NCBI GenBank assembly: GCA_028554795.2
Contig: CM068831.1
Span: 64,570,982 to 64,634,981 of the forward strand
Origin: Sinohyriopsis cumingii
Lineage: Eukaryota > Mollusca > Bivalvia > Unionida > Unionidae
Length of the DNA stretch: 64,000 bases
Reading direction: 5' to 3'
Notes under the pieces: generated by a model
The model's database searches: none
Told to the model about the DNA's origin: nothing
What the model saw: only the letters and a program-made list of their open reading frames with translations
Made by a program: the position numbers and the translations under genes
Shown: piece by piece, positions 587 to 63,776 of the stretch
Numbering within the stretch: position 1 is the first letter of the stretch
Layout: every line of letters starts with the position of its first letter

Positions 587-596
587 ATAAATAACT

Positions 597-604
597 AATA
601 AATG
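597..604 (+). promoter_or_regulatory. Poly(A) signal overlapping the next start codon (AATAAATG)
   Basis: AATAAA at 597-602 lies 11 bases after the stop of the fibre-like gene and runs straight into the ATG at 602-604. The 3' processing signal of one gene and the start of the next share bases, which shows how tightly packed the element is. Confidence 0.45.
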
Positions 605-1126: not shown

Positions 1127-2591
1127 ATTTAGCATCAATTTTCCAACACCAATTAGCGTCAAAGAAATTGCGTTAACACAATTGCGTGTCTACAACAGCT
1201 GGCCTAATGTTAGATCGACGTCATTCGGTAAATTATTGTCAAATAATTCACTTGTTTTTGCCAACAAAACCAAACCCGATGGAACACCTGATTGGATATA
1301 TGTCGGTATACCAACAGGAAGTTACGAAATTGATCAGCTGGATAAGGAATTTACCACCAGAATATCAAATATAACCGGCGATGCTACTCCGGGAATAAAA
1401 ATATCTGCGCACGAACCAACACTATCATCGATAATAGAAGTGAAATCACCGTACATCGTTGATATTTACCAATCATCGATTAGGACCATATTAGGTTGGC
1501 CCGAAATTCCTCCTGTGGAAACATCAGATGATACAACTCCCGGGTTTACCTCGTTGGATTTACCAAGTACATTAGAACCAAAAAAATCCGACTTTGTCAC
1601 CGACGAGGCTTCGGGATCATTCCCTACATCCAGCTTTGATATAATCAATAAGGCTCTTGATCTCATGGAGCAACATAAACTTGGTCGTATTGTGTTTTCT
1701 TTTAATTTTAAGGTGGAAAATGTTTCATGGTTGGTTCTTCCCAAAATCCCACCCGCGGATACAGTGATAGATATTGGTGAATATAAAAAAATTATAATAA
1801 CCCCAATAGACGGCGATTATGTAAAAAAAACCATCAATGAATTTAATATATTACATAAGATGCTATTTTCTTATTTTCGATCATTTTTCAATGAATGTAT
1901 CGAAAATAAAACAGGCTGGTGTGATTATCTCCCAAGACATGTGAGACGCTTGAATCGAATTGCGAACGATCTTGAATATTATCATAAAATGTTTATTCAG
2001 GCAATCATCGACGATATATCAATCGGCGATTATATTCTTCCTATTACCAAATTTACATTGATCAAAAATTCAGGCAATAAGAAAAAATTCATGGAATTAC
2101 ATAAATTAACCGAGAAAACATTACCAAATTTCAAATTTCCCGGTTACGACGTTGATAAAATGAGAAAATCCCTCACTGATACCATCGATGAGTTATTTCC
2201 GAAATTACACGCCGCGTGGGCAGAGAAAAAACAATTAGCGCTGTTTCTCAGACACGATAATGATCCGACCAAAGGCGGGCGGCATATCTCGCCAGGTATC
2301 GTTAATATAACGGAAGTTATCGCGATTTATATTCACGCGGATGTTGTCGAGGGGAGTTACAATGTTGATTCGTCAGAGTCAAATCAAGCACAGCAGGGAT
2401 TTATCTTGTATTCGTTTTCACCTAGCGCTTCTCCGGGTTATTTGATAATAAAGGAGCCGGTGAATCCGTTTTATCTGCGATGTCATAATCGATTATTATC
2501 GAAGATAAATTTCAAACTGACGGATCAGAAAGGAAATTTGCTTGATATCCGCGGGGAAACGATAAGTATCAATCTGCTGGTGAAATCGTAA
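1047..2591 (+). CDS. Virion/capsid-like protein with large central insertion
   Basis: The protein has 514 residues. The N-terminal part (about 20-150) has ALTQLRVYNSWPNVR, GIPTGSYEIDQLD and SIRTILGW. The C-terminal part (about 415-514) has ITEVIAIYIHADVVEGSYN, SASPGYLIIKEP and LTDQKGNLLDIRGETISINL. Both blocks match the order of a protein common in invertebrate Polinton-like elements, probably a jelly-roll virion component, where the blocks are nearly adjacent. Here about 260 residues separate them, including a helical stretch at 255-325 and a lysine-rich region at 335-400. The ATG at 1047 lies inside the upstream gene; it is the first ATG that keeps the whole N-terminal block. The exact role (major capsid, penton or minor protein) is unresolved. 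Confidence 0.6.
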   Translation: MSELAQIVTNTTPPTTTLISLSSTKPEFSINFPTPISVKEIALTQLRVYNSWPNVRSTSFGKLLSNNSLVFANKTKPDGTPDWIYVGIPTGSYEIDQLDKEFTTRISNITGDATPGIKISAHEPTLSSIIEVKSPYIVDIYQSSIRTILGWPEIPPVETSDDTTPGFTSLDLPSTLEPKKSDFVTDEASGSFPTSSFDIINKALDLMEQHKLGRIVFSFNFKVENVSWLVLPKIPPADTVIDIGEYKKIIITPIDGDYVKKTINEFNILHKMLFSYFRSFFNECIENKTGWCDYLPRHVRRLNRIANDLEYYHKMFIQAIIDDISIGDYILPITKFTLIKNSGNKKKFMELHKLTEKTLPNFKFPGYDVDKMRKSLTDTIDELFPKLHAAWAEKKQLALFLRHDNDPTKGGRHISPGIVNITEVIAIYIHADVVEGSYNVDSSESNQAQQGFILYSFSPSASPGYLIIKEPVNPFYLRCHNRLLSKINFKLTDQKGNLLDIRGETISINLLVKS

Positions 2592-2600
2592 ATCCATCCG

Positions 2601-2720
2601 CCATGGAAAAACAGGCCAAAAAAATAAATAAAATCCAGGGAAATTTTCAAATCGTGAGAATCTGTCTGCCAGGGAAAAACAGGCCAAAAAAATAAATAAA
2701 ATCCAGGGAAATTTTCAAAA
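2601..2720. repeat. Two direct copies of a ~51-bp repeat with AATAAATAAA, between convergent genes
   Basis: Copies at 2601-2651 and 2669-2720 (period 68) differ by about one base in the core. Each holds GCCAAAAAAATAAATAAAAT, so each gives overlapping plus-strand poly(A) signals just past the capsid-like gene stop at 2591. On the right a T-rich tract (about 2727-2757) precedes the end of the convergent minus-strand gene. The simplest reading is a duplicated 3'-end-processing region separating two convergent units. Confidence 0.7.
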
Positions 2721-2780
2721 TTAATATATTTTTTTAATTTTTGTTTTTTTTTGTTGTTTGCGGAAAATATTCAGGAAAAT

Positions 2781-3158
2781 TCAAGAGTCTGCGATTTCCT
2801 TGGCCTTGGTCTCATCGACAAGTTTTTTCAGTTGTCTGACGCGTGAACTTGTAATTTTTTTTGACTCGTATGCGTCTGATAAAATCAATCTAGCTTTTTC
2901 CACTAGCGTAGATAATTTAACAAAATCCTCGACGCGATCATCGCTGACTGTCGAAAGTGATTGATACATCGCGATTTGGATTTTCTTTATTAATTTGTAT
3001 TCGGATGGTAGCGTGTATTTGTATTCAAGTTTTCCTTGAACAATTGTCTCGAATTCGGATCGGATTTTATTTGTGTCCAATTCTGAGGGAAGATTTATTT
3101 TTTTCTTTCTCAGGTCATCAATAGCTTCGATAATATTGTTTATGGTTTGTTCGTTCAT
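2781..3158 (-). CDS. Unknown helical viral protein
   Basis: The protein has 125 residues and is not recognised. The sequence is highly charged (many K, E, D), predicted almost wholly alpha-helical, and lacks cysteine, signal peptide or membrane segment. It starts MNEQTINNIIEAIDDLRKKK and ends in a basic-to-acidic helix. It is the last gene of a minus-strand group with the HNH-like and cysteine-rich genes (25 bases after the HNH-like stop). It could be a small structural or DNA-binding accessory protein; no function is assigned. Confidence 0.6.
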   Translation of the reverse strand: MNEQTINNIIEAIDDLRKKKINLPSELDTNKIRSEFETIVQGKLEYKYTLPSEYKLIKKIQIAMYQSLSTVSDDRVEDFVKLSTLVEKARLILSDAYESKKITSSRVRQLKKLVDETKAKEIADS

Positions 3159-3183
3159 GTTATATTAATTTTGTAATATTCAA

Positions 3184-3744
3184 TTAATTTTCTTCGGATA
3201 TTATCGGAATATAGTAAAACTCAATCCACTCGCCAATTTTGTAGGAAAATGCTGCGCTAGTTATTTTTTCTGCCGTACGATGCACCGATGCTGGATTAAT
3301 ACTATAATATTTTGCAGCGGCGGTCATCGACGTGAATACAATTTCCTCATTTGTCTCTTTATTTATCGATTTGACCGCCTTTGGTATTCTGTATCCGCCA
3401 TTAAATTTACAATTTTCACTCGGAGTTACCGCGCGAAGATTGGATATTTTATTATTAAGTTTATTTCCGTCGATATGGTCAATGACCAAATTATCCTTGA
3501 TGAGTCCATGGAAACACTCGAATATAAATCTGTGGCATAAATAACTTGATTTTCTTTGTTTTTTATTCTCACCGACAGTAAATAACAGATAACCAGAATT
3601 GCAAATATTACCAACATTTTTCTTTGTTTTGATATGTCTAACGATACCATCGGACGACGCTTCGTAACCCTCGATAGTTGGATGAGATCTATACTCGTGC
3701 GTGATTTTCATTGCAGGAATCGTCGATTTCATTTCCATATACAA
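3184..3744 (-). CDS. HNH homing-endonuclease-like protein (NUMOD4-HNH-NUMOD1 layout)
   Basis: The protein has 186 residues from the first ATG. Residues about 24-55 (IEGYEASSDGIVRHIKTKK) resemble NUMOD4. Residues about 70-107 have CHRFIFECF then VIDHIDGNKLNNKISNLRAVT, the HNH nuclease core with the DH pair at 89-90 and N98. Residues about 122-160 (SINKETNEEIVFTSMTAAAKYY) resemble the NUMOD1 DNA-binding repeat. Free-standing enzymes of this kind are selfish endonucleases common in large DNA viruses and phages. The core residues look intact. The first ATG overlaps the upstream gene by 56 bases; the internal ATG at 3711 would shorten the overlap and keep every domain, so the start is uncertain. 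Confidence 0.85.
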   Translation of the reverse strand: MYMEMKSTIPAMKITHEYRSHPTIEGYEASSDGIVRHIKTKKNVGNICNSGYLLFTVGENKKQRKSSYLCHRFIFECFHGLIKDNLVIDHIDGNKLNNKISNLRAVTPSENCKFNGGYRIPKAVKSINKETNEEIVFTSMTAAAKYYSINPASVHRTAEKITSAAFSYKIGEWIEFYYIPIISEEN

Positions 3745-4036
3745 TATTCCATTTGTCTAAATCGTAATTTGCCTTGAATCGATTAATATAATCTTCTTCG
3801 CATGTTATTATCGACGAGGATCTTTTTTCATAATATCGCCGCAATTCCCGATAATTTTTCCCTCCACAAGCCAGACACAATCGAGTTTTTCCTCGAGTGC
3901 CAACTTGGCAAACTAAGCACCGCTGTGGTCCTTTACTGCCTCGTCGAATCGCATATATATGAGCACCACAATAATCACCTCTGCAGGATTTGTCGCATGA
4001 TTTTGTTGATCCGATTGGTATCCATTTGCATTGCAT
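3689..4036 (-). CDS. Cysteine-rich, probably zinc-binding protein
   Basis: The start at 4036 gives 115 residues; a longer frame to 4291 would run antisense into the polymerase gene and adds nothing domain-like. Cysteines and a histidine at C3, C14, C18, C23, H26, C40, C43, C54 and C57 include KSCDKSCRGDYCGAH and RCLVCQVGTRGKTRLCLACG, consistent with two zinc-binding modules. The C-terminus is charged and helical. Similar small Cys-rich proteins occur in invertebrate Polinton-like elements as far as I recall, with no known function. It heads the minus-strand group, only 33 bases from the divergent polymerase-helicase gene, and overlaps the HNH-like frame. Confidence 0.6.
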   Translation of the reverse strand: MQCKWIPIGSTKSCDKSCRGDYCGAHIYAIRRGSKGPQRCLVCQVGTRGKTRLCLACGGKNYRELRRYYEKRSSSIITCEEDYINRFKANYDLDKWNIVYGNEIDDSCNENHARV

Positions 4037-4069
4037 TATATAATTTAAACATTTGTCTAAAATATAATA
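4037..4069. promoter_or_regulatory. 33-bp divergent promoter gap with TATATAA
   Basis: The only space between the Cys-rich gene (start 4036, minus) and the polymerase-helicase gene (start 4070, plus) contains TATATAA at 4037-4043. This near-palindromic AT box could serve either direction. With so little room, transcript starts or 5' leaders must lie inside the neighbouring coding sequence or be extremely short. Confidence 0.4.
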
Positions 4070-7042
4070 ATGGATACATTTGATCTTGATGAGGCAGAAT
4101 ATATCATTCCTGAGGTCGATCGCGCCAAAAAAGAATTCTTCGATGATGGAGCGATTCACACTTGGTCGACATGGAAAACTAACGCTGTTGATGCTACGAT
4201 GAATCTGGAACGGGCCAAGAAGATAATCGAGCATATAAAATTCGAACACAAAGAAGAACGATTTATCTTCGGAATAAAATTTATTGCACAAATGCCTGAC
4301 GACACTTGGATCATTCGCGATAAACGAGATCCAATACGTGGCGGTAAGAAAAATGTTATTCTTGATAAAAATTCGAAGCCAGGATTATTATTGGGAATCG
4401 ATGGTCCTTATTATGCCAGGGCGTATCCTTCTAGTGCTGTTGTTTATGGAATTTATCGGCTAAATAATAATCCTGACATGAAAAATCTACCTGCGATGAA
4501 AGAATCACCGATGATAAACTGCGTGGCTGAGCGCGTTATCGAGCACATGAAAAACGCTCGTCGTGGATCTGGTCTGACTCAGTTGAGGTTGAATAAAATT
4601 AACTCATGGGCGAAGACAGTTGTTGATGGCGCATCGATTGACGATGTTGCTGTGTTGAGCAAGAAACTTAAATTTCCTATCACGGTGAAAACGCTATCAG
4701 GAGAAATATTATATTCGTCGCCGTATAGATCTCGAGGAGTTCCAATCGAAATTATTGATCATAATTCACATGCGTGGTCGCAGTCGGTAATGATATTCCC
4801 GCGAGATCGCGCTGTTAAATTTTATCCCGTTGAAGGCGCAAAAGACAATTCCGATGCCATGTTCAGATATATCAAAATATTAGCCGCGTCTGATCCGATA
4901 TCGGTTTGGTTATTCTCGAGCGAAGAAAAATACGATCAGTTTATATTGCCGCGAGGAGATATTTACCGTGATGAAAAATTACATGAATCTATGAAAAATA
5001 TCGCGGTGAAATATTCGTCAAATCCTGATCAGTTATTAACGAATTGTTTTACTGTTCCGTCTGTTGCTGCTCACGCTGCCAGAGAAAGAAATTCGTGGAA
5101 ACCTACGAGAAACGAATACCTCACTGATATTCAACTTAGTTGTATCGAATACGGCCATGGCGGATTGTGGAATACCAAATATTATTTCGAAGATATGATA
5201 TCCGTTGACATGAGCGCGTGCTATCCTGGAAGTTTCCTTGGATATGGTGATTGTGCGGATTATTTTGCTAAATTTGGCCATCCCACCAACGAAATGACAA
5301 GGGTAGCAATTAACGGACCGTTGCCTGATTTTGTCATGACAGGATTCGCTTGTGTTACTTCATTCGAGTTTGCTGAAAATTTACATAAAATTTGTTATAT
5401 TTGGTTTGGTCGGCATTTATCGCAGCGTCGTTGGGTCCCTACGGTTTTGTTGAGGTATATGCTGGATTCGTCAATGTTAATATCGTTGACGGTTAGCGAG
5501 GCGATTATATCATACAGGAAACAAACTAAGGTGTGGTTGCCGACGGATTGTGAAAACGCGAAAGATATTGGAAGAAAAATAATTGGCAAATTTACTCAAG
5601 GAGGATCCGTTGATCATAAACACCGACACGCTAGGTTATTTATCAATGATGCCGAGATGGACTTTATTATTGCCGATACGGTATCGCGAGGAATATTCTG
5701 CAACAGAGAGAATATTATTATTGACGGAGAAAAATTAGGTACCGTAATCACTTATCTCGATGGAGAATCAGCGCAGTATACGCATTTGAGATCATCGATG
5801 CTCGCTTATGTGAGTATAAATTTGCTATCGATGATAAATAAATTTTCTGATATCGCGGTAAGGGTCGCAACGGACTCGTTTTATATCGATAAGAAATACC
5901 AGTATAGGCTGGATAATTTAATCGCCGATGGTTCTTGGGGAACTTGGAGGATAAAAAACGAGGATATCCTAGATTACTGTGAGGACGCCGATGTCGAAGA
6001 TTGCGATAAATTTCATCGAGATAAATTTGAGGAAATATCGACGGCTGCATCTGCATTTGACCCGATTTCACGTAGTAAATTCGTTTACATGAATGGACCT
6101 GGTGGTAGCGGGAAAACAACGAGAGCGATAAATTTATTTGCGAAATCTGATATGATAGTGTTGACTCCAACTCACAGATTAGCGCGAGAAATAAGGCAAC
6201 GCGACGTTGATTCTTGCACGTATCACAGTTATTTCAAATACAGCGGTGGATTATGGGATTCGGCTCGCATGGGAAATAAATATATCAACAAAATTATAAT
6301 ATTTGATGAAATTTGCACAGTAAATTTAGTTGTATTAAAATCGTTCCTGATCTGGCTGGAGGAGAAAAATACAGCCGTGGTAATGTGCGGAGATCATGGC
6401 CAGCCTGATCCGATTGATGGTGAATCTCCTCACGAATGGCTCAGGAACTTTGTTGACTATTATGAGGAAATCGACGCTGATTATAGATCCGATGATATTT
6501 TACTGACTGAATTTAAGAAAATAATTCGATTACAACCGAATAAAATTCAATGCGATGTGATGAGAAAAATAATCGACGAGACTCCGATGGATATTTTTCT
6601 AAATTTGTGGCGTCCCGATCATCTGATTGTTGCTAGTAGGAAAATTGTTCGTGATGTTATTCAGGAAATGTTATTCAAGCTGCATTGCGAGAAATTTCCA
6701 ACATTGCAGGTGCCGTTGTGTTACAGGCCCGCTGATACCAGGAAACAAAATATCAGTGTTACTTTACCCTGCGGAGAGGAAAAGATCTTGGTACTGAACG
6801 ATATTATTCTTGTTGATATTAATCTTGTCAATGACACGATAAACGCAGAAAGATCGCCATGGAAACTAGGATATGCAACAACGATACATTCATCGCAGGG
6901 ATTAACCATGGATGGCCAAGTTTGGATTGTCGATGATAGAATTTCCTGGTCAAATTTAGTGTATTTAGCCGTGTCAAGAGTAAGAAAATTATCTCAGTTA
7001 GGTAGAATTCGGTTTCACATTAATGACGCTGGCGGTAGTTGA
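4070..7042 (+). CDS. Family-B-like DNA polymerase fused to superfamily 1 helicase
   Basis: The protein has 990 residues in one uninterrupted frame. SVDMSACYPGS at 378-388 fits polymerase motif A (D380, Y385, P386); IGKFTQGG at 505-512 could be motif B (K507, G511); VRVATDSFYID with T601-D602-S603 fits motif C. The A-to-C distance of 222 residues is normal for family B. Residues 1-340 show no exonuclease motif I recognise. The C-terminal third is an SF1 helicase: Walker A GPGGSGKTT (676-684), PTHRLAREIR (motif Ia), FDE at 745-747 (motif II), GDHGQ at 774-778 (motif III) and ATTIHSSQGLTMD (936-948) with YLAVSRVR (motifs V/VI). The protein would copy and unwind the viral genome. The helicase assignment is firm; the polymerase assignment rests on short motifs and their spacing. 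Its 3' end overlaps the integrase gene by 28 bases, tail to tail. Confidence 0.8.
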   Translation: MDTFDLDEAEYIIPEVDRAKKEFFDDGAIHTWSTWKTNAVDATMNLERAKKIIEHIKFEHKEERFIFGIKFIAQMPDDTWIIRDKRDPIRGGKKNVILDKNSKPGLLLGIDGPYYARAYPSSAVVYGIYRLNNNPDMKNLPAMKESPMINCVAERVIEHMKNARRGSGLTQLRLNKINSWAKTVVDGASIDDVAVLSKKLKFPITVKTLSGEILYSSPYRSRGVPIEIIDHNSHAWSQSVMIFPRDRAVKFYPVEGAKDNSDAMFRYIKILAASDPISVWLFSSEEKYDQFILPRGDIYRDEKLHESMKNIAVKYSSNPDQLLTNCFTVPSVAAHAARERNSWKPTRNEYLTDIQLSCIEYGHGGLWNTKYYFEDMISVDMSACYPGSFLGYGDCADYFAKFGHPTNEMTRVAINGPLPDFVMTGFACVTSFEFAENLHKICYIWFGRHLSQRRWVPTVLLRYMLDSSMLISLTVSEAIISYRKQTKVWLPTDCENAKDIGRKIIGKFTQGGSVDHKHRHARLFINDAEMDFIIADTVSRGIFCNRENIIIDGEKLGTVITYLDGESAQYTHLRSSMLAYVSINLLSMINKFSDIAVRVATDSFYIDKKYQYRLDNLIADGSWGTWRIKNEDILDYCEDADVEDCDKFHRDKFEEISTAASAFDPISRSKFVYMNGPGGSGKTTRAINLFAKSDMIVLTPTHRLAREIRQRDVDSCTYHSYFKYSGGLWDSARMGNKYINKIIIFDEICTVNLVVLKSFLIWLEEKNTAVVMCGDHGQPDPIDGESPHEWLRNFVDYYEEIDADYRSDDILLTEFKKIIRLQPNKIQCDVMRKIIDETPMDIFLNLWRPDHLIVASRKIVRDVIQEMLFKLHCEKFPTLQVPLCYRPADTRKQNISVTLPCGEEKILVLNDIILVDINLVNDTINAERSPWKLGYATTIHSSQGLTMDGQVWIVDDRISWSNLVYLAVSRVRKLSQLGRIRFHINDAGGS

Positions 7043-7965
7043 GTATCTTTCGGTATTATTTGTAATTCCTCCTTGGTAAATCCGCGTTGTGGCGCTAGCG
7101 AATCTAGGAAATAAATTGCTGGTCTTCCTGATGATCTTGTTACGGCTGATATTTTATGTGTCGTAACGCTCCAGTTTGGATCAGTTGCTCTTTTTCTTCC
7201 TCCTTCGGCCTCGCCTTCTTTATATAAATACCTGACCGTGACGCTACCTAGCACAGGCGGAATTGTGGAATCTCGCTTTAGGGGTATATTTGGTTTTGTA
7301 ATTGCAATTGCAGGTTTCATTGCTATTGTTCTCGTTGTCTCGTTATTTAGTGCGTTAATCACATGAGGCAACCTCGATACCCAATCATGAGATCGATTAT
7401 CTTGAATAAATTCACGCGCGTACTGGTATCCGAATAATCTTTCCGCTAGTGTTTTATTAAATCTCTCAACGATAGCTTGATTGTGATGAACACCTACAAT
7501 ACCGCGACGGATTTTAACATTATTCTTTTTCATCAGTGAAGTAACCGCGCCAAGAAATTCTCGACCTGGATCAACCTGGAGAAGCTTCGGCCATGTTAAT
7601 GGAGATCGTGAATAAATTTCGCTAAACGCCTTAGCGATCTCCGTTGCTGTTTTATTCGATAACGGCTCGGCTTCTTTATACCTGCTGGCGATATCAACGA
7701 CTGTCAAGACATATTTATATGTGACTCCGTCGACGGTATCGTAAGGAAGAAACATTAAATCAGCCTGATGGACTTCATTAGGGACACTGACGGTGAAACT
7801 TGCATATGGTATTTTCTTAGGCGGAGGAAGATATATTTGCCAGACTGCCTGTTTCGATAACCACGATTCAGCGGTGGATTGTTTTACTTTAGCGGCTTTA
7901 GCGAGTTTGGCAATTGCTGATTTTCCTCGCCAGAATCCTCGCGGAGAATAATATATCTGCTCCAT
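7015..7965 (-). CDS. Retroviral-type (DDE) integrase
   Basis: The protein has 316 residues. The rve core runs from about 60 to 215: HQADLMFLP with D69, VDPGREF with D132 and HHNQAIVERFNKTL with E167, a D-62-D-34-E layout close to the classical DD35E. The N-terminus (1-50) is helical and basic and lacks a visible HHCC zinc finger, so it may be divergent or reduced. Residues about 240-305 are strand-rich and basic, as in C-terminal DNA- or chromatin-binding domains of Polinton integrases. It would insert the viral DNA into host chromosomes. It lies two bases after the PLA2 stop codon and converges with the polymerase-helicase gene. Confidence 0.95.
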   Translation of the reverse strand: MEQIYYSPRGFWRGKSAIAKLAKAAKVKQSTAESWLSKQAVWQIYLPPPKKIPYASFTVSVPNEVHQADLMFLPYDTVDGVTYKYVLTVVDIASRYKEAEPLSNKTATEIAKAFSEIYSRSPLTWPKLLQVDPGREFLGAVTSLMKKNNVKIRRGIVGVHHNQAIVERFNKTLAERLFGYQYAREFIQDNRSHDWVSRLPHVINALNNETTRTIAMKPAIAITKPNIPLKRDSTIPPVLGSVTVRYLYKEGEAEGGRKRATDPNWSVTTHKISAVTRSSGRPAIYFLDSLAPQRGFTKEELQIIPKDTQLPPASLM

Positions 7966-7967
7966 TA

Positions 7968-8303
7968 TTATTTACCAGCACCGAATACTAATTTACCTTT
8001 CATCGCGCCTTTTTTCAACCAAGTTGCCAATTTTTCTTTGAAACTTTTGTCAGGAATCGCGTCTATTGCATGAATTAGCCTAATATCAGCGAGATGTCTT
8101 TGTTGTAAATCCCCGCTACGATACGCAAGATCGTGATAGTAACACGCGTTATCGATGGCGTTTACTGGATCTTCGCCGGGATTTGGTTGATTATTATCGT
8201 TGAGTCTTATATCGAGCCTTGTGCCGGGTCCGCAGTAATTGTATCCTGGCAGATGCTTCTCTCCGGGATATTTCGCCCAGGGCAACCCGGGTAGATTTTT
8301 CAT
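7968..8303 (-). CDS. Phospholipase A2 of parvovirus VP1-unique-region type
   Basis: The protein has 111 residues. The calcium-binding loop YNYCGPGTRLD (21-31) and the catalytic block AIDNACYYHDLAY with H57-D58 (49-61) are present, as is a second aspartate near 73. This is the arrangement of the PLA2 of parvovirus VP1, also reported in some adintovirus-like elements. The known role of such enzymes is breaching of endosomal membranes by incoming particles. The C-terminus is basic (KKGAMKGK). Its ATG at 8303 overlaps the stop of the zinc-ribbon gene (ATGA), and the integrase begins two bases after its stop, so the three genes form a tight minus-strand group. Confidence 0.9.
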   Translation of the reverse strand: MKNLPGLPWAKYPGEKHLPGYNYCGPGTRLDIRLNDNNQPNPGEDPVNAIDNACYYHDLAYRSGDLQQRHLADIRLIHAIDAIPDKSFKEKLATWLKKGAMKGKLVFGAGK

Positions 8304-8476
8304 GGAGGCGGTAATGTCTCCTCCGGTTCTTCTATTTTTTTTTTTACAAATCTGAATTTGCGCGTCTTACAAACTTCGCATTCTCCTGCAATTGCGTTCC
8401 TGTTATTGCGTGTGACGATTTCGATTGGATTTATCGTAGCTGTGCGTGTGCGACATTTAACACAATATAGATCCAT
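8300..8476 (-). CDS. Small zinc-ribbon protein (DUF5679-like)
   Basis: The start at 8476 gives 58 residues; a longer frame to 8539 would overlap the divergent ATPase gene and adds no conserved sequence. MDLYCVKCRTRT with C5/C8 and GECEVCKTRKFRFVKK with C33/C36 form a four-cysteine ribbon. The pattern matches short zinc-ribbon proteins found in many large DNA viruses and Polinton-like elements. The tail is acidic and proline-rich (EEPEETLPPP). It may be a transcription or replication accessory factor; no direct evidence. Its stop codon overlaps the PLA2 start. Confidence 0.8.
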   Translation of the reverse strand: MDLYCVKCRTRTATINPIEIVTRNNRNAIAGECEVCKTRKFRFVKKKIEEPEETLPPP

Positions 8477-8488
8477 ATATTCTGTAAC

Positions 8489-9139
8489 ATGAATGTAATT
8501 GATTTTTCGGCCACGAAGCGACGCGAGCAGGTGAAACACAACGCGGTGTTACCGAATTCGATAAGGATGATAATTATTGGCCCGTCTGGTTCTGGAAAGA
8601 CGCAGTTGTTGCTAAATTTGATAATGCGATGGCTAAAATGGGATAAGTTGTATTTGGTTGCGCCGTCCGTTGATGATCAGCGTTGCTATCAAGTACTAAA
8701 GGAATTTAGCGACAATACCGACGAAGGCACAATCGAATTCATCACAGACATCAATGAAGCTCCATCTGTGGAAATTTTAGATGGCGATGTTAATAATCTT
8801 GTTGTTTTCGATGATGTTATGCTGGATAAACAAACTAATCCGGCTAGGATATTCTCGCGTGGCCGACACAAGAACACCGATGTGATTTACGTGACGCAGC
8901 GATATACACAAATTCCAAAGGTAATTAGGGACAATTGCAATATCTTATCAGTTTTCAATGGCGTTGATACTCACACGCTAAGAAATATTCATCAGACCTG
9001 GTGCAACGGCGATATGGACATAAACAAATTCAAAAATTTCTTCAGCCGCGCCCAGGCAACACCGCATGGTTTCATCACGATTAATCTTCATGATCCGCGT
9101 AGTAGATATCGAATCGGTCTTGATCAAATTTATTCATGA
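8489..9139 (+). CDS. A32/FtsK-type genome-packaging ATPase
   Basis: The protein has 216 residues. Walker A is GPSGSGKT at 31-38, Walker B VVFDD at 105-109, followed by YVTQRYTQIPKVIRDNCN at about 133-150, which holds the polar sensor region expected in packaging ATPases of Polintons, adintoviruses and poxvirus A32. The enzyme would drive viral DNA into preformed capsids. The length is typical and the frame intact. It starts only 12 bases from the zinc-ribbon start on the other strand, so both share a minimal divergent promoter. Confidence 0.95.
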   Translation: MNVIDFSATKRREQVKHNAVLPNSIRMIIIGPSGSGKTQLLLNLIMRWLKWDKLYLVAPSVDDQRCYQVLKEFSDNTDEGTIEFITDINEAPSVEILDGDVNNLVVFDDVMLDKQTNPARIFSRGRHKNTDVIYVTQRYTQIPKVIRDNCNILSVFNGVDTHTLRNIHQTWCNGDMDINKFKNFFSRAQATPHGFITINLHDPRSRYRIGLDQIYS

Positions 9140-28170: not shown

Positions 28171-28836
28171 AGAAATGTAAAAATTTTCTTTTAATGGGAT
28201 GCAGTCTCTACTATCATTATCTGCAATTCCACAATAAGTGACACTTTATTTGCCAACTTAAACAGTATAATTGTACATGTTTTGCCCTTCTGACATACTG
28301 ACAGCAAAGAATTTATTTCTAAAGTATAAAATCAAGTCCAGTTCATGTGATAATATACTAATACCGAAAATGCATAATAAATGTGATCAAAACATGAGAA
28401 TTTTCCATGATAACTTTTCAATATACACATTACTGTGAAGCTCAGTACCCTACAATGTCATCTGATATGAGAAATGATAACTGCACATACTCCACATAGC
28501 CAGAGAAATGTAAAAATTTTCTTTTAATGGGATGCAGTCTCTACTATCATTTTCTGCAATTCCACAATAAGTGACACTTTATTTGCCAACTTAAACAGTA
28601 TAATTGTACATGTTTTGCCCTTCTGACATACTGACAGCAAAGAATTTATTTCTTAAGTATAAAATCAAGTCCAGTTCATGTGATAATATACTAATACCAA
28701 AAATGCATAATAAATGTGATCAAAACATGAGAATTTTCCATGATAACTTTTCAATATACACATTACTGTGAAGCTCAGTACCCTACAATGTCATCTGATA
28801 TGAGAAATGATAACTGCACATACTCCACATAGCCAG
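28171..28836 (-). repeat. 333-bp tandem duplication downstream of the U2AF1 stop
   Basis: Copy 1 is 28171-28503 and copy 2 28504-28836, differing by only a few bases. Read on the minus strand each copy holds two AATAAA sites (copy 2 at 28578-28583 and 28645-28650; copy 1 at 28245-28250 and 28312-28317). The block begins 142 bases past the stop codon, so it probably lies in the 3' UTR and doubles the choice of poly(A) sites. Confidence 0.85.
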
Positions 28837-28977: not shown

Positions 28978-29110
28978 TCAGTAGCGTCCATATCTGTCTC
29001 GTGATCTAGATCTCCTGCGTTCACGACTGCGAGATCTTTTTTCTCTGCTCCTGGACCTGCGTCTCTCACGGCTTTTACTGCGTCGTGTTGGTGGTGAGCG
29101 GGACTTAGAC
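28978..29110 (-). CDS. U2AF1: U2AF1 last exon: RS domain and stop
   Basis: Acceptor TTTTGAAG|GTCTAAG. The first G completes an arginine codon begun in the previous exon. It encodes [20 protein letters not shown] and further RS/RE dipeptides ending SRDRYGRY and TGA (28978-28980). RS domains mediate contacts with SR proteins. Confidence 0.95.
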
Positions 29111-38100: not shown

Positions 38101-41100
38101 TTTTCACAAGGAAGGTTAATAGAAAGATTTGGAGGTGATCTTTTCTATATGGCTACGAGTACTCTCCTAAATTATTTTCACAAGGAAGGATAATAGAAAG
38201 ATTTGGAGAATGAAACTTCACTTGAAAGTGTAAGGATATGATGTAAAGCTGCCACAGAGTCTGAAGTAATTATTCCTCCCACGAGACATAAGATAAACTC
38301 TGTGGAAGTAAAATATTTCAAATATGTTGGAAAAAAGAGATTTTTTTATAGCAACTCTGGGTTGATAATTATTCCAGACTTAAATTCGCTGACTCTGAAG
38401 TAAAGAGGTTTTACAGTCAATGAGAACAATATCCCATTCTAGCTCAAGTTGGCAATTCAGCAGTTGGATTTGTCAATGGAACTGACAAATTGAGGATTTA
38501 ATCAAGCAATTCTCAGGACAGTTTTGAATCTCATACAGCATGGTATATGCATGACATCAGCCAGCATGTCCCAATGTTCAGCACAACATATGCATTACAC
38601 TAGCCAGTATGTAGACATGTAAAACATAGTATATACATGACACCAGCCAGCACCCCCATGTTCAGCACAGTGTATGCATGACACCAGCCAGCATGTACAT
38701 GTGAAGAAAATCCAATGAGTCATAGTTGCTGACAAACCACTAGGAAAAGCCATTTTAAAATTAAATGAGAATGTATTGAAAACAAAAATGAGAATTCTCT
38801 TTCAAGACATCATATACTCCAACCTGTTGTGAAAACCTATTTTCTAATTTAAAAAATGATGTGTGCTTTTCTATTTTAAAAAATGCTGTGTGCACTTGAT
38901 AAAAGAACACAGTTGAACTTGGTGTTAATTACAAGGACTGACTCAGGGCATGGTCTTTGTTCTGTCCACTAATCAAGTCTTGAAAGCAGTCAGGAAAAAT
39001 CTAAATTCCAACAAATTCCTTTCCATTCTTGCTGATGGAATCAATGATGCTTCCATATCAGAAAACGAAAATGGTGTCTATAAGTTTCGTTGACAATGGA
39101 AAATGAGAAATAAATATATTGTACATTATTCTTTTCTTAAAGTGCATACATTTAATAAAATCTAGGTAATAAGTGATTTAAATTTTGGACAAGTTAATTT
39201 ACTGTAACTACTTGTTCTGGACAAGTGGATTTTGAAAAATCTGATCAGCCCAGCTAATGCAGTGCTGTGTAATAGCATCATGTACATACCTTTTTTTTGA
39301 TTTGCGAGTTCTTCCATACAGCTCTCGCCTCAGTTCACGGGAGATTGGTTTCAAGTGCATGAAATTACAGAAACCTCCTCGGGTACACTCGCTGGAATTA
39401 ATAAGGCTTTAAACACTGAGGTGCAAAAAAAATTCTATAACATATAAGATTTAAGTACTAATACCTATAAAATACTAATGTGAACATTAACCCCAACCTG
39501 GCACACTTCCATTTCTATGATCACCCCAAAATCAATAGGCTATTTACACATGGTGCAAACCATCCACAAAGTTTGGTCTAGATATGTGATATGGAACTAA
39601 TGCTTTTAAGGCAAAAACCTATTTACTTCCTCCAGTCCCACTGACCTTGATATTGACCATTTGACACCAAAATCAATGGCCTACTTCCTAACCTGAAGTG
39701 CAAGTCGTTCACAATGTTTAATCCAGGTAGGAAGTGTATTGCTAACATTATTCTGTGAAAAGCATTTTTCTTATGTCTAAGATTTAGAACCAATGTTATT
39801 ATGGAGAAACCATTATCCCCCCCATCTTAAATACAGCCATCTTGACCTTTGATCTTTTGACCCAAAATCAATACACTTTTCCCTTACTCCAAGTGCAAAT
39901 GGTCCACAAGCTTGGTCCATGCATGTGACCAAAAGAAATAGGCTTTTCCTTACCCCAAATGCAAGTCACCCACAAGGCTGAGTAACTGTAGATGGTGAAG
40001 AACTTGAGTTACTGTTCAGAAACAAAATTGCTAAAAGATGGACACGTATGCTTAGCCTTAAGGCAAGTCTATCAAAATCTTTCAAACAAATTTAATGCCT
40101 GATAGCAAGAAGCTTGAACCTAATATTACAGCTGTATTTTATCTTTTGTAATAATTAAATGTTACAAATTTAGAACAGCATTTCTTCTATGATAAGCCAT
40201 GTACATTTGTTGAAAATTCTTTTGGAAGTGGAGTGCGTAGTAGATGAGCTAATATTTGCAAAAGTAAAAGCTTTCTTAAACGAAAATTTATCAAAAGTTT
40301 GTAAAATGATGGAAGACTGAATCACCTACCCCATTTCATACTGCCTACAGCATGCTTCACGGAAATCTGTCACAGGAGATAGCTCTGCATGAATTGGTCG
40401 CCCATTAAACCAGCGATTGTTTAAGTCATTTACTGCTTTCTCTGCATCTTCCTCGTAGCGGTACTGAATGAATAACAACAGAATATGTACACAAAAATGT
40501 AAAAACTATCAAAAATTACCTCATGTATTATTTCACACATAGGTTGTTTACAAAAAGTATATAAATTTTATTCTCTATGATGGTTTGATTCCTTATAAAA
40601 ACTAAAAAATACTATCATCTTAAAAGACAATCAGGCATGAAAGCTGGCAAGATATGGTCAAATTATGTGATTTTTAGAAATCATTTTTAGTAACTGTGGC
40701 AATATTTGATGATGAATCAGCAGAATTACTAATTTGAAAGCCATTTATGTAGAGTGCTTTCTGTGAAATGTAGTTAAATTCCAAAGAATGGCTTTTGAGA
40801 ACTTGTTTAAAAGGTTATTCTAGTTTTAGTTTTAGTAATGACAAACGTAGTTGGTCACAAATCAGGATCATTTGAATAAACCTTCTTTATGTTAGGATGC
40901 TTTCTCTCAAAGTAGGTCAAATTCTGTTGAGTGGTATTGGGAAAAAGTCATTTCAAGGTTTTCTTTTTTTTACGGAACCATAACTATATTTGACTGCAGA
41001 TTAACACCACTGAAAGCTCTTCATTCATCTGTTAAATCAGATCAAATTGTGAAGAGCCATTTTCAAAAAGTCATTTACATAAATTTTCCATTTTTAATAA

Positions 41101-42635
41101 TCTTTAAAAATAGCATGAATATTTGCAGGTCAGCATCATTTGTACAAACTTTTAAAACCTCCAAGAGAGAATGCCGTCAGCCAAGTCTAATAGAATCTGG
41201 CACAGTGGTTTTTTAAAAAAGCAAATGTGCTGACGAACATGTGATGGAAGATGCATAATGACAATGGCTAATCCAGAAGCTTGCCTGGCCTAACAACCAG
41301 TTAGAAATATTTGCATGATTAATATTATAATTACTACAAAAAAAAAAAAGGTGCCAGAGTTGTAATGGAAAGTTTGAATATGATGCCAAACTTTACATGA
41401 TTACTGTGAACAGAACAGTATACACCTCCAGTGTGTTTAATTGTCCTTGATGTTGATAAAGGAAATTTGTGTACAGAGACCATTATCCGTCTGGCAGTCA
41501 ATGGCAGTGTTGCACATTTAGCAGTCACTGGCAGTGTTGCACATTTAGCACAGACTTCCAGCAATCTTTTGTCCTACATCCCCCATATCTTTACCATATT
41601 CACCCTCTTTGCATGTTTTTGGTCAGGAAAAATATAAAAAAAACATGCTGAAACTTTTCATTATTGGAAACCCATCCATATCTCTTTTGAAATTGACAGA
41701 ATTCTTCCTAAACCCAAGTGCAAGCCATCAATAAAGATTACTAACCACAGACTGTGGAGAATTCAAGTATTACACGCAAACTATGGTGACCATAATCCTT
41801 TTACCTTATGACCATGAAATTAATAGGGCTCCTCCTTACTATAATTGCAAGCCATACACAAAGTTTAGTATTTGTGGTTGGTGTGGAACTGAAGTTATTG
41901 TGAGGAACCTATTTTACTTCCATTAATCAGAGTAACCATGACATTTGAGGTTTCTACTCCAAAACTGATAGGACTCATCTTTACCCCAAGACCAAACCAT
42001 CAACAAAGTTTGGTACCTGTAGTGGCAGACAATCTGAGTTACGATACAAAAGCAAAATTGGTAACAGCCAGATGGACATCATAACATAATTGGCAGGCAT
42101 ACCAAAAAAAAAGTCTTGAAATTTAAGCTTGATATTACCATTAAGTTATAAAAATAAAAAGGGGCTCAAACGACAGGTCAAACAAGTGGCAAATGATTAA
42201 AGGAAACAAATAACGACACAATCATATTTATATTGCTCAAAATTATTATTGTACTGGAAATAACCGTCTTACCTTGACGTACACATTGCCAACCAAATGG
42301 TCACCTAAATTGTCACATACATTCATCTCCTCTATCTCACCATACTGAAAATACAAAAAATATAATTTTAATAGTCAATTCATCTTTTTTTGTTTATGAC
42401 AGTAATGGAAAACTCGTACTAGAGTCATGAATTTTTTAATCCTGCATCCACTGGCATGTTTACATGCTATTATTTGATAATCTAGCCAAGTCTAGGGTGT
42501 GAAATGTTTAGAAAACTAGTGGAGGAATCAAATTTGTTACAAAGAATTTGGTCAAAAACAAAAATAAGCGTACAGAATTTTGTTCACTTTTAGACTACCT
42601 TTGTAATACATTAGTTTTCAATGGGTTCCACTTCA

Positions 42636-48600: not shown

Positions 48601-51600
48601 GAAAATCAGCTGGCAAGAACGTGTCCAACACAGCAAGATGTGTCAGCCACCCATATTCCGTTTCAAGGATGTGTGCAAGAGGGACATGAAGGCATGTGAC
48701 AGTTCACCCGACTGCTGGAAGTGTAGACCGAATAGACCAAGGCACCTGGAGACTGACGGTCTGCAAAGGCATAGTAGTCACTGATGTGAGGAGAGGCCAG
48801 CTGGTGGCAGAGAAACGTGAGAGAAAGAAGAGCACGACAGCAACCCCAGACTTCTTAGTATGTTTGCACCAACTGCAACAGGGGCTGTCACTCGCACTCG
48901 CTCTTGAGACTGAGCCACCAATGATGAATGCAATTTAAGACTTCACTTAGTGTTCTGGGGCATTTAGGGACACAAGGTTAAGGATCCTTCCCAAAATGTT
49001 CCTATGCCTTTCCTGGCATTCATACATGATCATGATGTGGTATGTACATGTATAACATTTCATAGAAACAATCCACAAAGTCCAATTTTCTTTGTACATA
49101 TTTCTTGTATTCCTATCAATGATCACCCAAAGGTACTGCACAGGCTTGAAATAGATAACTATATGAGATGGAATTGAAAAGAAAAGAAACACCCTATCAG
49201 GATGATTCCATTTTGTAATGTCACACTAATCCATTTCAGGAGCTTATGGCTTCATTTTTTACACCAACAAATTTTTCTCACTAAATCTTACTTTTGGGTA
49301 CAAACATAACCATAAAGCAATAAACTATTACAAGTCTTTCTGCAAAGGCTTTACAGGTCATGTGGAATCAACATGTCTATTTAACTGCTTGCTACTAGTG
49401 ATTGTGACCAAAAAGTGTTCTGTTCAATTAGATCACACTTTGCACTTTTAGTAAATATGATAATTATTTTCTGTCCCATATATTTATATAATCAAGGCAT
49501 ATAATCAACATATAAGTACAATAACATGATATGGACTGCCGTGTCAAGTTCTATTAACAGCATCAAGACTCGTATCAAATGAGATTCTGCCACCATCCTG
49601 ATTCTGTCAACATGAACAAGTGACATAACAATCTGTGTCCTGTCTGATAGTATAAATGTGTATCAAGGAATGCTGCCTACCTTTTCCATTTCTACATAAA
49701 CTTCTTCAAAAAACTCATCATAGTGCTGCTGTATCTCAAGCTCATCCATTTGGACTACAACAGAGCATATCATAGGTCATACTACACATCAACCAATATA
49801 TCTTGCTAGCTTTGCAATTTCATCACATTGTAAATAAAATTAACAAAACCGATTAGTTTCTGAAAAACTCAGCAACACGTTCCTATCATTTCAAGAGCCA
49901 GGTTATATTTTCAATTTGAATTTCAGCTGAAGAATGGCTTTATCGCATGCCAATACAGACACATGGAGAACTTTTTAGCTAAACAAAGGTCTAATAAATC
50001 TTGCATGCAAAAAGATCATGGTTACAGCCACTATCATTGAACGGATTATCATAGAACGGATTTCTCTGGGACTCTAACTGACATAACAATCAAACATTAC
50101 TATAAATCTTTAAAAAATTACAGAGAATATTTTCCAATCTCCATTTTTTCCCTTCAGAGCCAAAAAGCATTTTTATTTTAGTTTTTCCATGACTGTGAAC
50201 CATGGATATCCAAACCAGTAAAAATGGGTCCACACTGTACAAGGCAATCGATTTTGGACTAATGCTCTCAAATCTGTTATTTGCAAAATAATAGTTAATA
50301 CTGATCTTTGATCAAAATTTGTTAGTTGGGAAGTCAGTACATAAAAAACATGGTTGATTTCTTCCATCTTTATTCCTAAATAATTTGTATCAAACTTTTA
50401 TGGCTGAATAAAGTTACATCTGGGCTAAATATAACTGCCACCAGTATTTATTTGTGCCCAACAAGTGTTTTACTTTTTTTTTGTTTCATTAACTTCCACA
50501 TGGCTGCCTCATTAGCTGACAAAAACATTTCAGAAACTAACAGGTTGAAAGATATGAAAAGATAAAGAAATCATAATAATGTGATGATAAATGCAAAATC
50601 TTTGATAAAAGTTTTCTTTCTCTGTATGCTGAGCTTACAGAAAAAACACCATTACACCTTTTTAAATACAATTCAAAATATTTCAAGATTTGACAAATCT
50701 TGAAAGAAAAATATTCTAGGCAATTTAAGGCAATTCATTTTGATTTTATAACCACCACTGTCTCAAGGTATTCAAGAAATGTTTAGGTTTATTTAATTTT
50801 AATAGCTTGTATGAAAATTTTAGAAATGTATTTCCCTCATGATGAAACTTTCCATGCCTCTGCAAAAAGCACCATTTTGTCAATTAAAAATAATTCACAT
50901 CAGAGCAAGAATTTGCACATATTTTTTAAATACAATGTTTAGCTAATTTTGAGGAATAAATTTACAAAAAAAGAGCAAAACTAAATTTAAATATTTCTTT
51001 CAGATGAACCACTTTTTAGGAGAAAGGCTTGGCCTTAATTATGTTAGTCAAACTTGTCAAGATTTTGTTAAACTTCTTTGAATACCTGAGAAAATGTTGA
51101 TTACTTAAACAGGAAAGTTTGATATCACAACTTTCCTGTAACACAAGATGCTGAAGTGGTCTGTGAATGATCTGTCCGTTGGATTTCTTCTAAAATGAAA
51201 CAAAGCCAAATAAGTTTTTACCTTATCTTCTAGCTCAGTAAAAACTTCCTCAAAGAAGTCATCAAACATCTCCTGAGCTTCAACATCATCCATATGGACT
51301 GAAACATAATTCTTACATTAGACTGATTAACAAACAAGATAGCCTCCAAGAGATCGATGCTCTACTGATCGAACTTTTTTCCCTCAGAAATCCAGGATCT
51401 TCTACTCTTTGATTCATTTTAAGTACTGAAACAAGAAATCCTGCCAAATCTCCCACATAACAAAACTATTTCCTTATGTTTGAGTTAACAAGTTCACAAG
51501 ATATCATAACTACAAGTGAAGTAAAAAAAAATCTTTGTCATAACCTGTTTACCTAAAACCTAGTAGCATGGTTCACTGAACTTGTCTGAGAACATGTCAA

Positions 51601-63600: not shown

Positions 63601-63776
63601 CAAATCATTGGTACCTAATGTATCAAAATGAAGCAAATCAAAGCGTGATTGTGTTGCATGCAAAACAAAGCAGAGAAAACAGAGATGGAATATATCTGTG
63701 AATACTTACTGTGGGAACCATCAGCTGTGAGGGCAGCATTCTGTGGGTTCAAATACAGGTTCTGCAGCAAAACAGT
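28978..63776 (-). CDS. U2AF1: U2AF1, small subunit of splicing factor U2AF (5' exons missing)
   Basis: U2AF35 binds the AG at the 3' splice site and pairs with U2AF65. Seven coding exons on the minus strand are identified (63710-63776; alternatives 51222-51298 and 49681-49754; 42273-42344; 40330-40463; 39290-39391; 28978-29110), all with AG/GT borders and matching phases. They encode the UHM/RRM (including [16 protein letters not shown] and the RWF of [18 protein letters not shown]), the second CCCH zinc finger (C-x7-C-x5-C-x3-H in [19 protein letters not shown]), [16 protein letters not shown], and an RS tail without the glycine run of vertebrates. About 44 N-terminal residues (first zinc finger) must lie beyond 64 kb; total length would be about 238, close to human (240). 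The gene carries a mutually exclusive exon pair. Confidence 0.97.
30401..31024. mobile_element. piggyBac-like non-autonomous element, copy 1
   Basis: It starts TTAACTCATTCGGCCCC and ends GGGGCCGAATCAAG; the outer right TTAA is lost. It aligns along its length with copy 2, and its ends are inverted (ATTCGGCCCC/GGGGCCGAAT). An identical 68-codon minus-strand frame in both copies is a by-product, not a gene. Confidence 0.6.
31152..31773. mobile_element. piggyBac-like non-autonomous element, copy 2
   Basis: It starts TTAACTCATTCGGCCCC and ends GGGGCCGAATCGGTTAA, so a TTAA flanks both ends, as left by piggyBac-type insertion. About 620 bp, no transposase. It lies only 127 bp from copy 1 in the same orientation. 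Confidence 0.65.
32487..32707 (-). mobile_element. tRNA-derived SINE family B, copy 1
   Basis: The reverse complement begins GGGGCCCCCAAGTGGCCAAG, has a B-box-like region TGGGTTTGAGTC and ends GGCGTTAAACCCCACAACAA, matching the copy at 62 kb. The 3' part (TTCTTCCTCCACCA ... GGCGTTAAAC) resembles the conserved 3' domain of mollusc SINEs (inference). Confidence 0.8.
34280..34960 (-). pseudogene. DIRS-like retroelement remnant (RNase H region)
   Basis: The minus strand reads VCMDASTTG (RNase H DAS motif, stop next) then, after a shift, [34 protein letters not shown] and [13 protein letters not shown]. This order matches the LHIN-LE-K, VLV-SDN-T and GG-KS-LC blocks of DIRS-type RNase H. Stops and frameshifts show decay. 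Related sequence probably extends over about 33.2-36.1 kb, but I cannot place its ends. It has the same orientation as U2AF1. Confidence 0.55.
38060..38207. repeat. 74-bp perfect-to-near-perfect tandem duplication
   Basis: GGTGATCTTTTCTATATGGC begins copies at 38060 and 38134; the copies differ at about one base, so this duplication is recent. Confidence 0.9.
39290..39391 (-). CDS. U2AF1: U2AF1 exon: end of zinc finger 2 and linker
   Basis: Acceptor TTAATTCCAG|CGAGTG, donor AAAAAAAAG|GTATGT; 102 bases. It encodes [28 protein letters not shown] and a short basic run TRKSKK before the RS domain. The leading C completes a glycine codon. Confidence 0.97.
39392..40329. other. U2AF1 intron with mollusc-type degenerate repeats
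   Basis: Units carrying GACCTTGA, CCAAAATCAAT and AAGTGCAA lie at about 39480-40030. Nothing coding. Confidence 0.7.
40330..40463 (-). CDS. U2AF1: U2AF1 exon: second half of UHM and start of zinc finger 2
   Basis: Acceptor TTATTCATTCAG|TACCGC, donor GAAATGGG|GTAGGT; 134 bases. It encodes [39 protein letters not shown] and RQYEMG. RWF is the UHM signature that grips the tryptophan of U2AF65. Confidence 0.97.
40464..42272. other. U2AF1 intron with degenerate repeats
   Basis: Units with TCAAATTCTGTTGAG (40690-41230) and with the GACCTTGAC-type motif (41670-42070) are present, plus a 27-bp duplication (GGCAGTGTTGCACATTTAGCA, 41502-41550). Confidence 0.65.
42273..42344 (-). CDS. U2AF1: U2AF1 exon: central UHM strands
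   Basis: Acceptor GTATTTTCAG|TATGG, donor GTCAAG|GTAAGA; 72 bases, phase 0 at both ends. It encodes [20 protein letters not shown] then VYVK, almost identical to the human segment. Confidence 0.97.
43385..43486. repeat. About 2.5 copies of a ~40-bp tandem unit
   Basis: Units contain TATTCAGGATAAAATGGG and TACGACCA. The minus-strand frame through it reads [10 protein letters not shown] repeats but has no splice or start support. Confidence 0.7.
45690..45940. repeat. Four ~62-bp imperfect tandem units
   Basis: Units share CTGAATATGGACTTGATTAG, TGTCACAT and TACCAATT. Confidence 0.7.
46440..48940 (+). pseudogene. APE-type non-LTR retrotransposon (LINE), internally deleted
   Basis: The plus strand reads [20 protein letters not shown] and [11 protein letters not shown] (endonuclease start), later [16 protein letters not shown] and [34 protein letters not shown] and [20 protein letters not shown] (reverse transcriptase), then directly [14 protein letters not shown] and [10 protein letters not shown] (C-terminal zinc-like end). 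The RT fingers/palm are present, but the part with the catalytic YADD box and thumb is missing, and there are several stops and frameshifts. It is antisense to U2AF1. Confidence 0.85.
49681..49754 (-). CDS. U2AF1: U2AF1 alternative exon 4B (UHM helix A, version 2)
   Basis: Acceptor GCTCTGTTGTAG|TCCAAA, donor GAAAAG|GTAGGC; 74 bases. After two bases completing a codon it encodes [20 protein letters not shown] then [14 protein letters not shown] matches the human helix best, but the end is one residue shorter than human. It starts and ends in the same phases as exon 4A. Confidence 0.93.
49755..51221. other. Intron between alternative exons 4A and 4B (1,467 bp)
   Basis: AT-rich with no element recognised. 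It is long enough for normal splicing, so steric exclusion does not explain the exon choice. Confidence 0.7.
51222..51298 (-). CDS. U2AF1: U2AF1 alternative exon 4A (UHM helix A, version 1)
   Basis: Acceptor TTATGTTTCAG|TCCATA, donor GATAAG|GTAAAA; 77 bases. It encodes [20 protein letters not shown] then ELEDK, the canonical length. It is homologous to exon 4B residue by residue with conservative changes (HY to MF, YV to FT, M to L). The frame is open with no decay. Confidence 0.93.
56169..56463. repeat. Direct repeat, ~122 bp, period 172
   Basis: Copies at 56169-56290 and 56341-56463 share AATGCAAAAAT(T/G)ATATGGGG through TCTAACAATGGAAACT; copy 2 lacks six bases. Confidence 0.85.
58030..60010 (-). 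pseudogene. DIRS-like retroelement remnant (RT, RNase H, tyrosine recombinase)
   Basis: Read 5' to 3' on the minus strand: an RT-like stretch (59690-59910, [18 protein letters not shown]), SWWLDLDYF then YTDASES at about 59510-59600 (RNase H), [13 protein letters not shown] (about 58.97-59.0 kb), [20 protein letters not shown] followed by [13 protein letters not shown] (58.57-58.7 kb, tyrosine recombinase core), and [16 protein letters not shown] and [17 protein letters not shown] (58.05-58.23 kb, recombinase end). This is the gene order of DIRS elements. Many stops and shifts show it is dead. It may extend to about 61.8 kb. Same orientation as U2AF1. Confidence 0.6.
61998..62241 (+). mobile_element. 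tRNA-derived SINE family B, copy 2
   Basis: Head GGGGCCCCGAGTGGCCGAAA, B box GGGTTCGAGTC, 3' domain GGGGGTTTTCCCAGGTTCTT ... GGCGTTAAACCCTACAACAA with a (CAA)n tail. A spacer of variable-arm type between the boxes suggests a leucine/serine-class tRNA ancestor (inference). Confidence 0.85.
62242..63709. other. Non-coding end of the large U2AF1 intron
   Basis: It contains a short duplication (GGATTTACTTCCTGTG at about 62501 and 62581) and otherwise nothing recognised. Confidence 0.55.
63710..63776 (-). CDS. U2AF1: U2AF1 67-base exon: start of UHM
   Basis: Acceptor TTTTTCATGCAG|ACTGTT, donor TCCCACA|GTAAGT. It encodes [20 protein letters not shown] then SH plus one base. Its length, 67, equals that of the vertebrate exons 3 and Ab, which are alternative forms of this same segment. 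Only one copy is seen here. The preceding exons lie outside the window. Confidence 0.96.

Follow-up and report, generated by a model that had tools for sequence, protein, structure and literature searches.

U2AF1 (U2AF35), the small subunit of U2AF, reads the AG at the 3' splice site, and mutations in it occur in human myelodysplastic syndromes. The described system closest to the one reported here is a pair of tandem homologous exons in the same gene of vertebrates, exons 3 and Ab (U2AF35a/U2AF35b) (PMC5224494). According to the same source, the inclusion or exclusion of both vertebrate exons leads to stop codons and nonsense-mediated decay (NMD), and the pair recodes a portion of the U2AF65-binding domain (UHM) that extends to helix A. 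A broader parallel is provided by convergent tandem duplicated exon substitutions, in which exons of one gene have likewise been duplicated independently, a different exon in each phylum (PMC9741552). The examples considered from that paper are ion channels and tropomyosin, neither of which belongs to the core splicing machinery, and U2AF1 occurs 0 times in its main text.

Here we describe the U2AF1 locus of Sinohyriopsis cumingii within the whole 64,000-nucleotide stretch of DNA that was analysed (the window). The vertebrate pair consists of versions of the 67-nt exon 3, whereas the mollusc pair consists of versions of the next exon, with lengths of 77 and 74 nt. As in vertebrates, the use of both exons or of neither introduces early stops and would be expected to trigger NMD.

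The U2AF1 locus and its two versions of exon 4

Exons 3, 4A, 4B, and 5 to 8 of U2AF1, through the stop codon, are located on the minus strand of the window. Neither exon 1 nor exon 2 was found within the 64 kb; both presumably sit beyond the window edge. Exon 3 (63710..63776, 67 nt) is preceded by AG and followed by gtaagt, encodes 22 residues and the first base of the next codon, and is the equivalent of vertebrate exon 3/Ab. A 12411-nt intron separates it from exon 4A (51222..51298, 77 nt), which is flanked by AG and GT and encodes an A-type peptide of 25 residues. Exon 4B (49681..49754, 74 nt), also with AG and GT flanks, follows after an intron of 1467 nt (49755..51221); its B-type peptide of 24 residues is one codon shorter than that of 4A. 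Another 7336 nt lead to exon 5 (42273..42344, 72 nt, 24 residues). Exon 6 (40330..40463, 134 nt) encodes the end of the UHM, including the RWF loop, and the start of zinc finger 2, and exon 7 (39290..39391, 102 nt) continues from zinc finger 2 onward. The coding part of exon 8 (28978..29110) specifies the C-terminal RS domain and ends with the stop codon at 28978-28980. All the splice sites looked at are canonical, with AG at seven acceptors and GT at six donors.

The domain composition is that of U2AF1, with two CCCH zinc fingers around an RRM-like UHM. Two stretches of PF00642 and one domain PF00076 scored above the gathering thresholds in both P0001 and P0039, proteins that match the window exons. 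Finger 2 is encoded by exons 6-7, and finger 1 lies outside the window. The Arg-X-Phe loop and the acidic helix A, which define a UHM (PMC7648758), are both present. In the Rfam search, no family reached its gathering score. A possible alternative acceptor of exon 7, positioned 15 nt upstream (39391-39406), would insert the residues LINSS at zinc finger 2, and exactly this insertion is present in the Sinanodonta model P0002. Shortly downstream of the U2AF1 stop codon are two nearly identical tandem copies of 333 nt (28171-28836).

Elsewhere in the window, positions 122-9139 contain a cluster of long open reading frames on both strands, which looks like a Polinton/Maverick-type element. The plus strand carries a frame without a Pfam match (1047-2591), a long protein with an AAA/helicase part (4070-7042), and an A32-like packaging ATPase (8489-9139), and the minus strand an integrase core (7015-7965) and a phospholipase-A2-like domain (7968-8303).

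The peptides of exons 4A and 4B match each other in a tblastn search of the 64-kb window with an E value of about 5e-7, which rules out chance similarity. The only further match of either peptide in the window is on the other strand, at a chance-level E value of 0.79, and provides no indication of a third copy of exon 4. The two exons have 24 codons in common, over which they agree at 13 residues and at 50 of 72 bases, and the differences are distributed as 6, 5, and 11 over codon positions 1, 2, and 3, as expected of two coding copies under constraint. Judged by their sequences, 4A and 4B are true paralogs. The exon 3-5 segment of the A form is 100% identical to the protein P0039 of Sinanodonta woodiana, and that of the B form is 100% identical to P0001 from Potamilus streckersoni and P0002 from Sinanodonta woodiana.

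Joining exon 3 to exon 5 through either 4A or 4B produces an open frame, with a 31-residue stretch for A and a 30-residue stretch for B. Both exons have lengths of 2 modulo 3, are entered in phase 1 and left in phase 0, and therefore both double skipping and double inclusion shift the frame and result in early stops. The direct splice of exon 3 to exon 5 reads ATA TGG TGA, which ends in a stop, and the combination of 4A with 4B shifts the frame so that a TAG is met inside 4B. The locus thus has the properties of a tandem exon pair: neighbouring homologous exons of equal phase, each with its own splice sites, in which skipping and double inclusion break the frame. The original prediction of homologous 77- and 74-base exons with equal phases and clean splice sites proved exact to the base. 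The two stops that it had named, an immediate one upon skipping both exons and a TAG upon including both, were reproduced, and its claim that only one of the two can be used is supported by the frame.

The acceptor region of exon 4A (51299..51323) contains 8 pyrimidines among the 17 positions from -20 to -4, the lowest count of the seven acceptors, and has another AG 13 nt upstream. The acceptor region of 4B (49755..49779) has 10 of 17, and the counts for exons 3, 5, 6, 7, and 8 are 12, 13, 13, 10, and 11, respectively. The weak acceptors of 4A and 4B hint that U2AF itself might regulate them, as it does in vertebrates.

One copy of exon 3 was found in the window, which includes just 224 bases upstream of this exon. 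The isoforms within each of the eight within-species mollusc pairs compared (8/8) have a common exon 3 sequence, unlike those of the vertebrate pair, which indirectly supports the single exon 3 of the original prediction. The duplicated unit here is exon 4, the neighbour of the 67-nt exon duplicated in vertebrates, in agreement with the earlier claim that the duplication is independent of exon 3/Ab. Isoforms of Crassostrea virginica (P0036, P0120) and Glandiceps (P0125) contain extra residues starting with SK after SH. In the oyster and the hemichordate, these residues suggest that exon 3 has a second donor, located a few bases further downstream.

Distribution and age of the A and B types

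Three protein searches, from which we used the best 120 of 1095, the best 120 of 1193, and 72 of 72 matches, provided 164 distinct proteins, and the exon-4 part was read in all of them. The exon-4 table has 63 rows from 58 of the 164 proteins, of which 52 were read once and six for both A and B; the B part of Mya was counted once. Proteins without an organism name, near-copies, and further isoforms were left out. Five B rows do not have the first two columns, and the gap in the B rows was placed by a script. Residues are numbered according to P0001, which we take to be equivalent to the numbering of human U2AF35.

The B type is characterized by Tyr86, Ile or Leu74, His or Phe77, and six residues between FFEEV and YGE. 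The A type has Phe86, Ala or Gly74, an acidic or other non-His residue at position 77, and seven residues in the same interval. In four of the 26 columns (74, 77, 86, and 91), no residue is common to the 19 A and 27 B rows. The mean identity is 0.79 within A, 0.85 within B, and 0.59 between A and B. A definition of B by the one-residue deletion alone was dropped, since the short spacing is also found in camel P0081, which keeps Phe86, and in fission yeast U2AF23; B is therefore defined by Tyr86 together with the short turn. This combination is absent from every named non-mollusc among the 164 proteins listed.

The outgroup comprises 17 rows from three annelids, two nemerteans, a brachiopod, a flatworm, a priapulid, two chelicerates, and seven deuterostomes. 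Phe86 and the seven-residue spacing are present in 17/17 of these rows and His77 in 15/17, which indicates that each copy changed where the other stayed. The ancestral His77 would have been lost in A, and the ancestral Phe86 and one residue in B. Position 70 is Asp in 18 of 19 A rows and 25 of 27 B rows, in contrast to 0/17 outgroup rows, 16 of which have Ser or Thr there. The sharing of Asp70 by A and B places the duplication after molluscs split from these phyla, gene conversion aside.

Both exon types are on record in 13 mollusc species, which we take to be bivalves, gastropods, and a cephalopod. In seven of them (Sinanodonta, Gigantopelta, Mercenaria, Pecten, Octopus sinensis, Crassostrea angulata, and C. 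virginica), A and B form isoform pairs, each annotated isoform has one exon type, and the two isoforms are listed with the same longest contig. In Nucella, Mya, Mytilus galloprovincialis, M. californianus, Tegillarca, and C. gigas, one model contains both types, with A before B as in the window. The B type was also seen in the chiton Liolophura. Within the eight isoform pairs, the N-terminal part is identical in 8/8 and the C-terminal part in 7/8; the exception is a five-residue insertion, which fits an alternative acceptor of exon 7. Two uninterrupted B-type proteins of 254 and 255 residues (P0015 and P0020) are encoded on contigs of 913 and 986 bases, which are too short for introns like those described here and look like spliced mRNA, and thus are probably transcripts.

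The A- and B-type proteins differ in the exon-4 segment, as anticipated from the predicted recoding of a piece of the UHM. The presence of both types in three mollusc classes, and of B in a chiton, answers the proposed search for the two exons in other molluscs. It also rules out a duplicate confined to this lineage or assembly and removes the concern that the second copy might be found in this individual only. Among the matches listed, the heterobranch snails Elysia, Bradybaena, Lymnaea, and Physella (P0043, P0048, P0149, and P0150) have only A, and the absence of B from them may reflect a loss or a gap in the gene models. The A-type peptides of Elysia, Lymnaea, and Physella contain Glu80, Ile85, and Val87, which are found in B rows as well; a change of the A form following a loss of B could produce such a pattern.

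In the tree of exon-4 peptides, B forms one clade with support 99/98 and A is split in two; the tree was built from 26 columns only, and the program warned that the columns were few and that the bootstrap had not converged. For the topology tests, in which the constrained groups were chosen after inspection of the tree, constraining A as one clade improved the likelihood by 4.8 (p 0.63). A clade uniting octopus A and B was rejected (likelihood cost 27.5, p 0.005), and one uniting oyster A and B, with a cost of 20.1 and p 0.18, was not. Taken together with the fixed differences between A and B, the tree and the topology tests are read most simply as a single duplication that preceded the divergence of bivalves, gastropods, cephalopods, and, as the B copy indicates, chitons. 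In molluscs, this either-or choice within the splicing machinery appears to go back a very long way.

Predicted function of the pair and competing explanations

Exon 4 was mapped onto the human structure 1JMT by sequence alignment, and we take it to encode helix A of the UHM and the turn to the next strand. Phe81, Phe82, Glu83, Glu84, Glu88, and Glu90 are kept in 46/46 mollusc rows, and the RWF loop, R132-W133-F134, is invariant in 37 aligned proteins. Since these pocket-typical residues are kept in both, the A and B forms should both still bind U2AF65. The mean net charge of the exon-4 peptide is -9.05 in A (19 rows), -7.78 in B (27 rows), and -8.06 in the outgroups. Fission-yeast U2AF23 aligns with B without a gap in the turn and with the A form with one gap, so that a functional small subunit of U2AF is known to have the shorter turn. 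In vertebrates, the swap between exons 3 and Ab is speculated to shift helix alpha2 relative to alpha6 and to alter U2AF65 contacts (PMC5224494), and U2AF1a and U2AF1b are described as having different sequence preferences at 3' splice sites (PMC6821156). By analogy, the mollusc swap is likely to have a similar effect, because it changes the same helix more heavily.

We have high confidence that 4A and 4B are an ancient mutually exclusive pair, backed by NMD and separate from the vertebrate exon 3/Ab pair. The pair would have originated when exon 4 of U2AF1 was duplicated in tandem in the ancestry of molluscs. Each mRNA would take either 4A or 4B, the double-skip and double-inclusion mRNAs would be removed by NMD so that only single-exon mRNAs make protein, and the two resulting proteins would differ only in the exon-4 segment. 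The changes between A and B probably tune the geometry of the UHM or its choice of partner, and hence the choice of 3' splice sites, as proposed for vertebrate U2AF35a/b.

The early stops caused by double inclusion and double skipping would also be produced if the second exon were a decaying duplicate or a poison exon, which only lowers U2AF1 output through frameshift and NMD. The poor pyrimidine tracts, with 4A ranking last among the seven acceptors and 4B tied with exon 7 as second poorest, are compatible with such a role. However, both exons are open, each is kept as a protein type of its own across mollusc classes, and both types are annotated as protein isoforms. It is thus very improbable that lowering output is all that the second exon does; NMD may be a side role of the pair. 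The models from six species that hold both exons in frame would, if real, mean that the pair is not strictly exclusive there, but they may be artefacts of prediction. A shifted 4B acceptor could in principle create an in-frame two-exon mRNA and a third protein with a doubled helix A, as the A-then-B models of Nucella, Mya, the two Mytilus species, Tegillarca, and C. gigas would have it. In the window, though, a shift to the closest upstream AG would lengthen 4B by 27 nt to 101 nt, with which double inclusion is still out of frame. Two of the six models (P0061 and P0145) contain odd inserted residues and do not have the normal exon-5 or later sequence, and therefore resemble prediction errors. 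A third protein of this kind is very improbable.

Competing RNA structures, in which docking and selector sites of the flanking introns take part, might impose the exclusive choice, either in addition to the NMD clean-up or in its place. Steric exclusion operates where the intervening intron is short, and the 1467 nt between 4A and 4B are too long for it in its simple form, which leaves more scope for RNA structures. In vertebrates, long inverted repeats have been described upstream of both Ab and exon 3, and mutating them did not affect splicing (PMC5224494). A search of 5.5 kb returned a raw count of 34 inverted pairs, and among the 25 listed none stood out or was convincing as a docking site. 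We consider a choice enforced by RNA structure unlikely.

The exclusive pair may be part of a wider arrangement, which we propose tentatively, as possible rather than probable: a two-state U2AF since near the origin of molluscs. The A and B UHMs, which retained complementary features of the ancestral helix A, would have different ligands or zinc-finger geometry. Each would direct its own set of 3' splice sites, in different tissues, and the pair would select its own exon through feedback on the weak acceptors.

Relation to other U2AF1 isoforms and significance

The nemertean Lineus longissimus resembles molluscs in having two U2AF1 isoforms that differ in the UHM, X1 and X2 (P0042 and P0044). 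Unlike in the mollusc pair, the differences, known from the proteins, are confined to residues 50 and 53, which belong to the exon-3 segment, and exon 4 has one form of the seven-residue ancestral type. An independent duplication of exon 3 in Lineus, a further parallel to vertebrates, is possible judging from these two proteins.

The vertebrate exon 3/Ab pair was already known, and the mollusc isoform sequences are already in public annotation. Among the open-licence papers listed, none dealt with a U2AF1 pair at exon 4 or with isoforms of U2AF1 in molluscs, and as far as that literature was searched, the recognition of the mollusc isoforms as an ancient exclusive pair is new. Vertebrates swap one UHM exon. 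In molluscs, by these data, the swapping of its neighbour predates the separation of the main classes, and a nemertean may exchange the exon-3 piece independently. The repeated and long-kept duplication within the same small domain suggests that having two versions of the UHM is useful. The mollusc pair provides natural, strongly diverged variants, with 13 of 24 residues alike in the pair described here, for probing how helix A is tuned.
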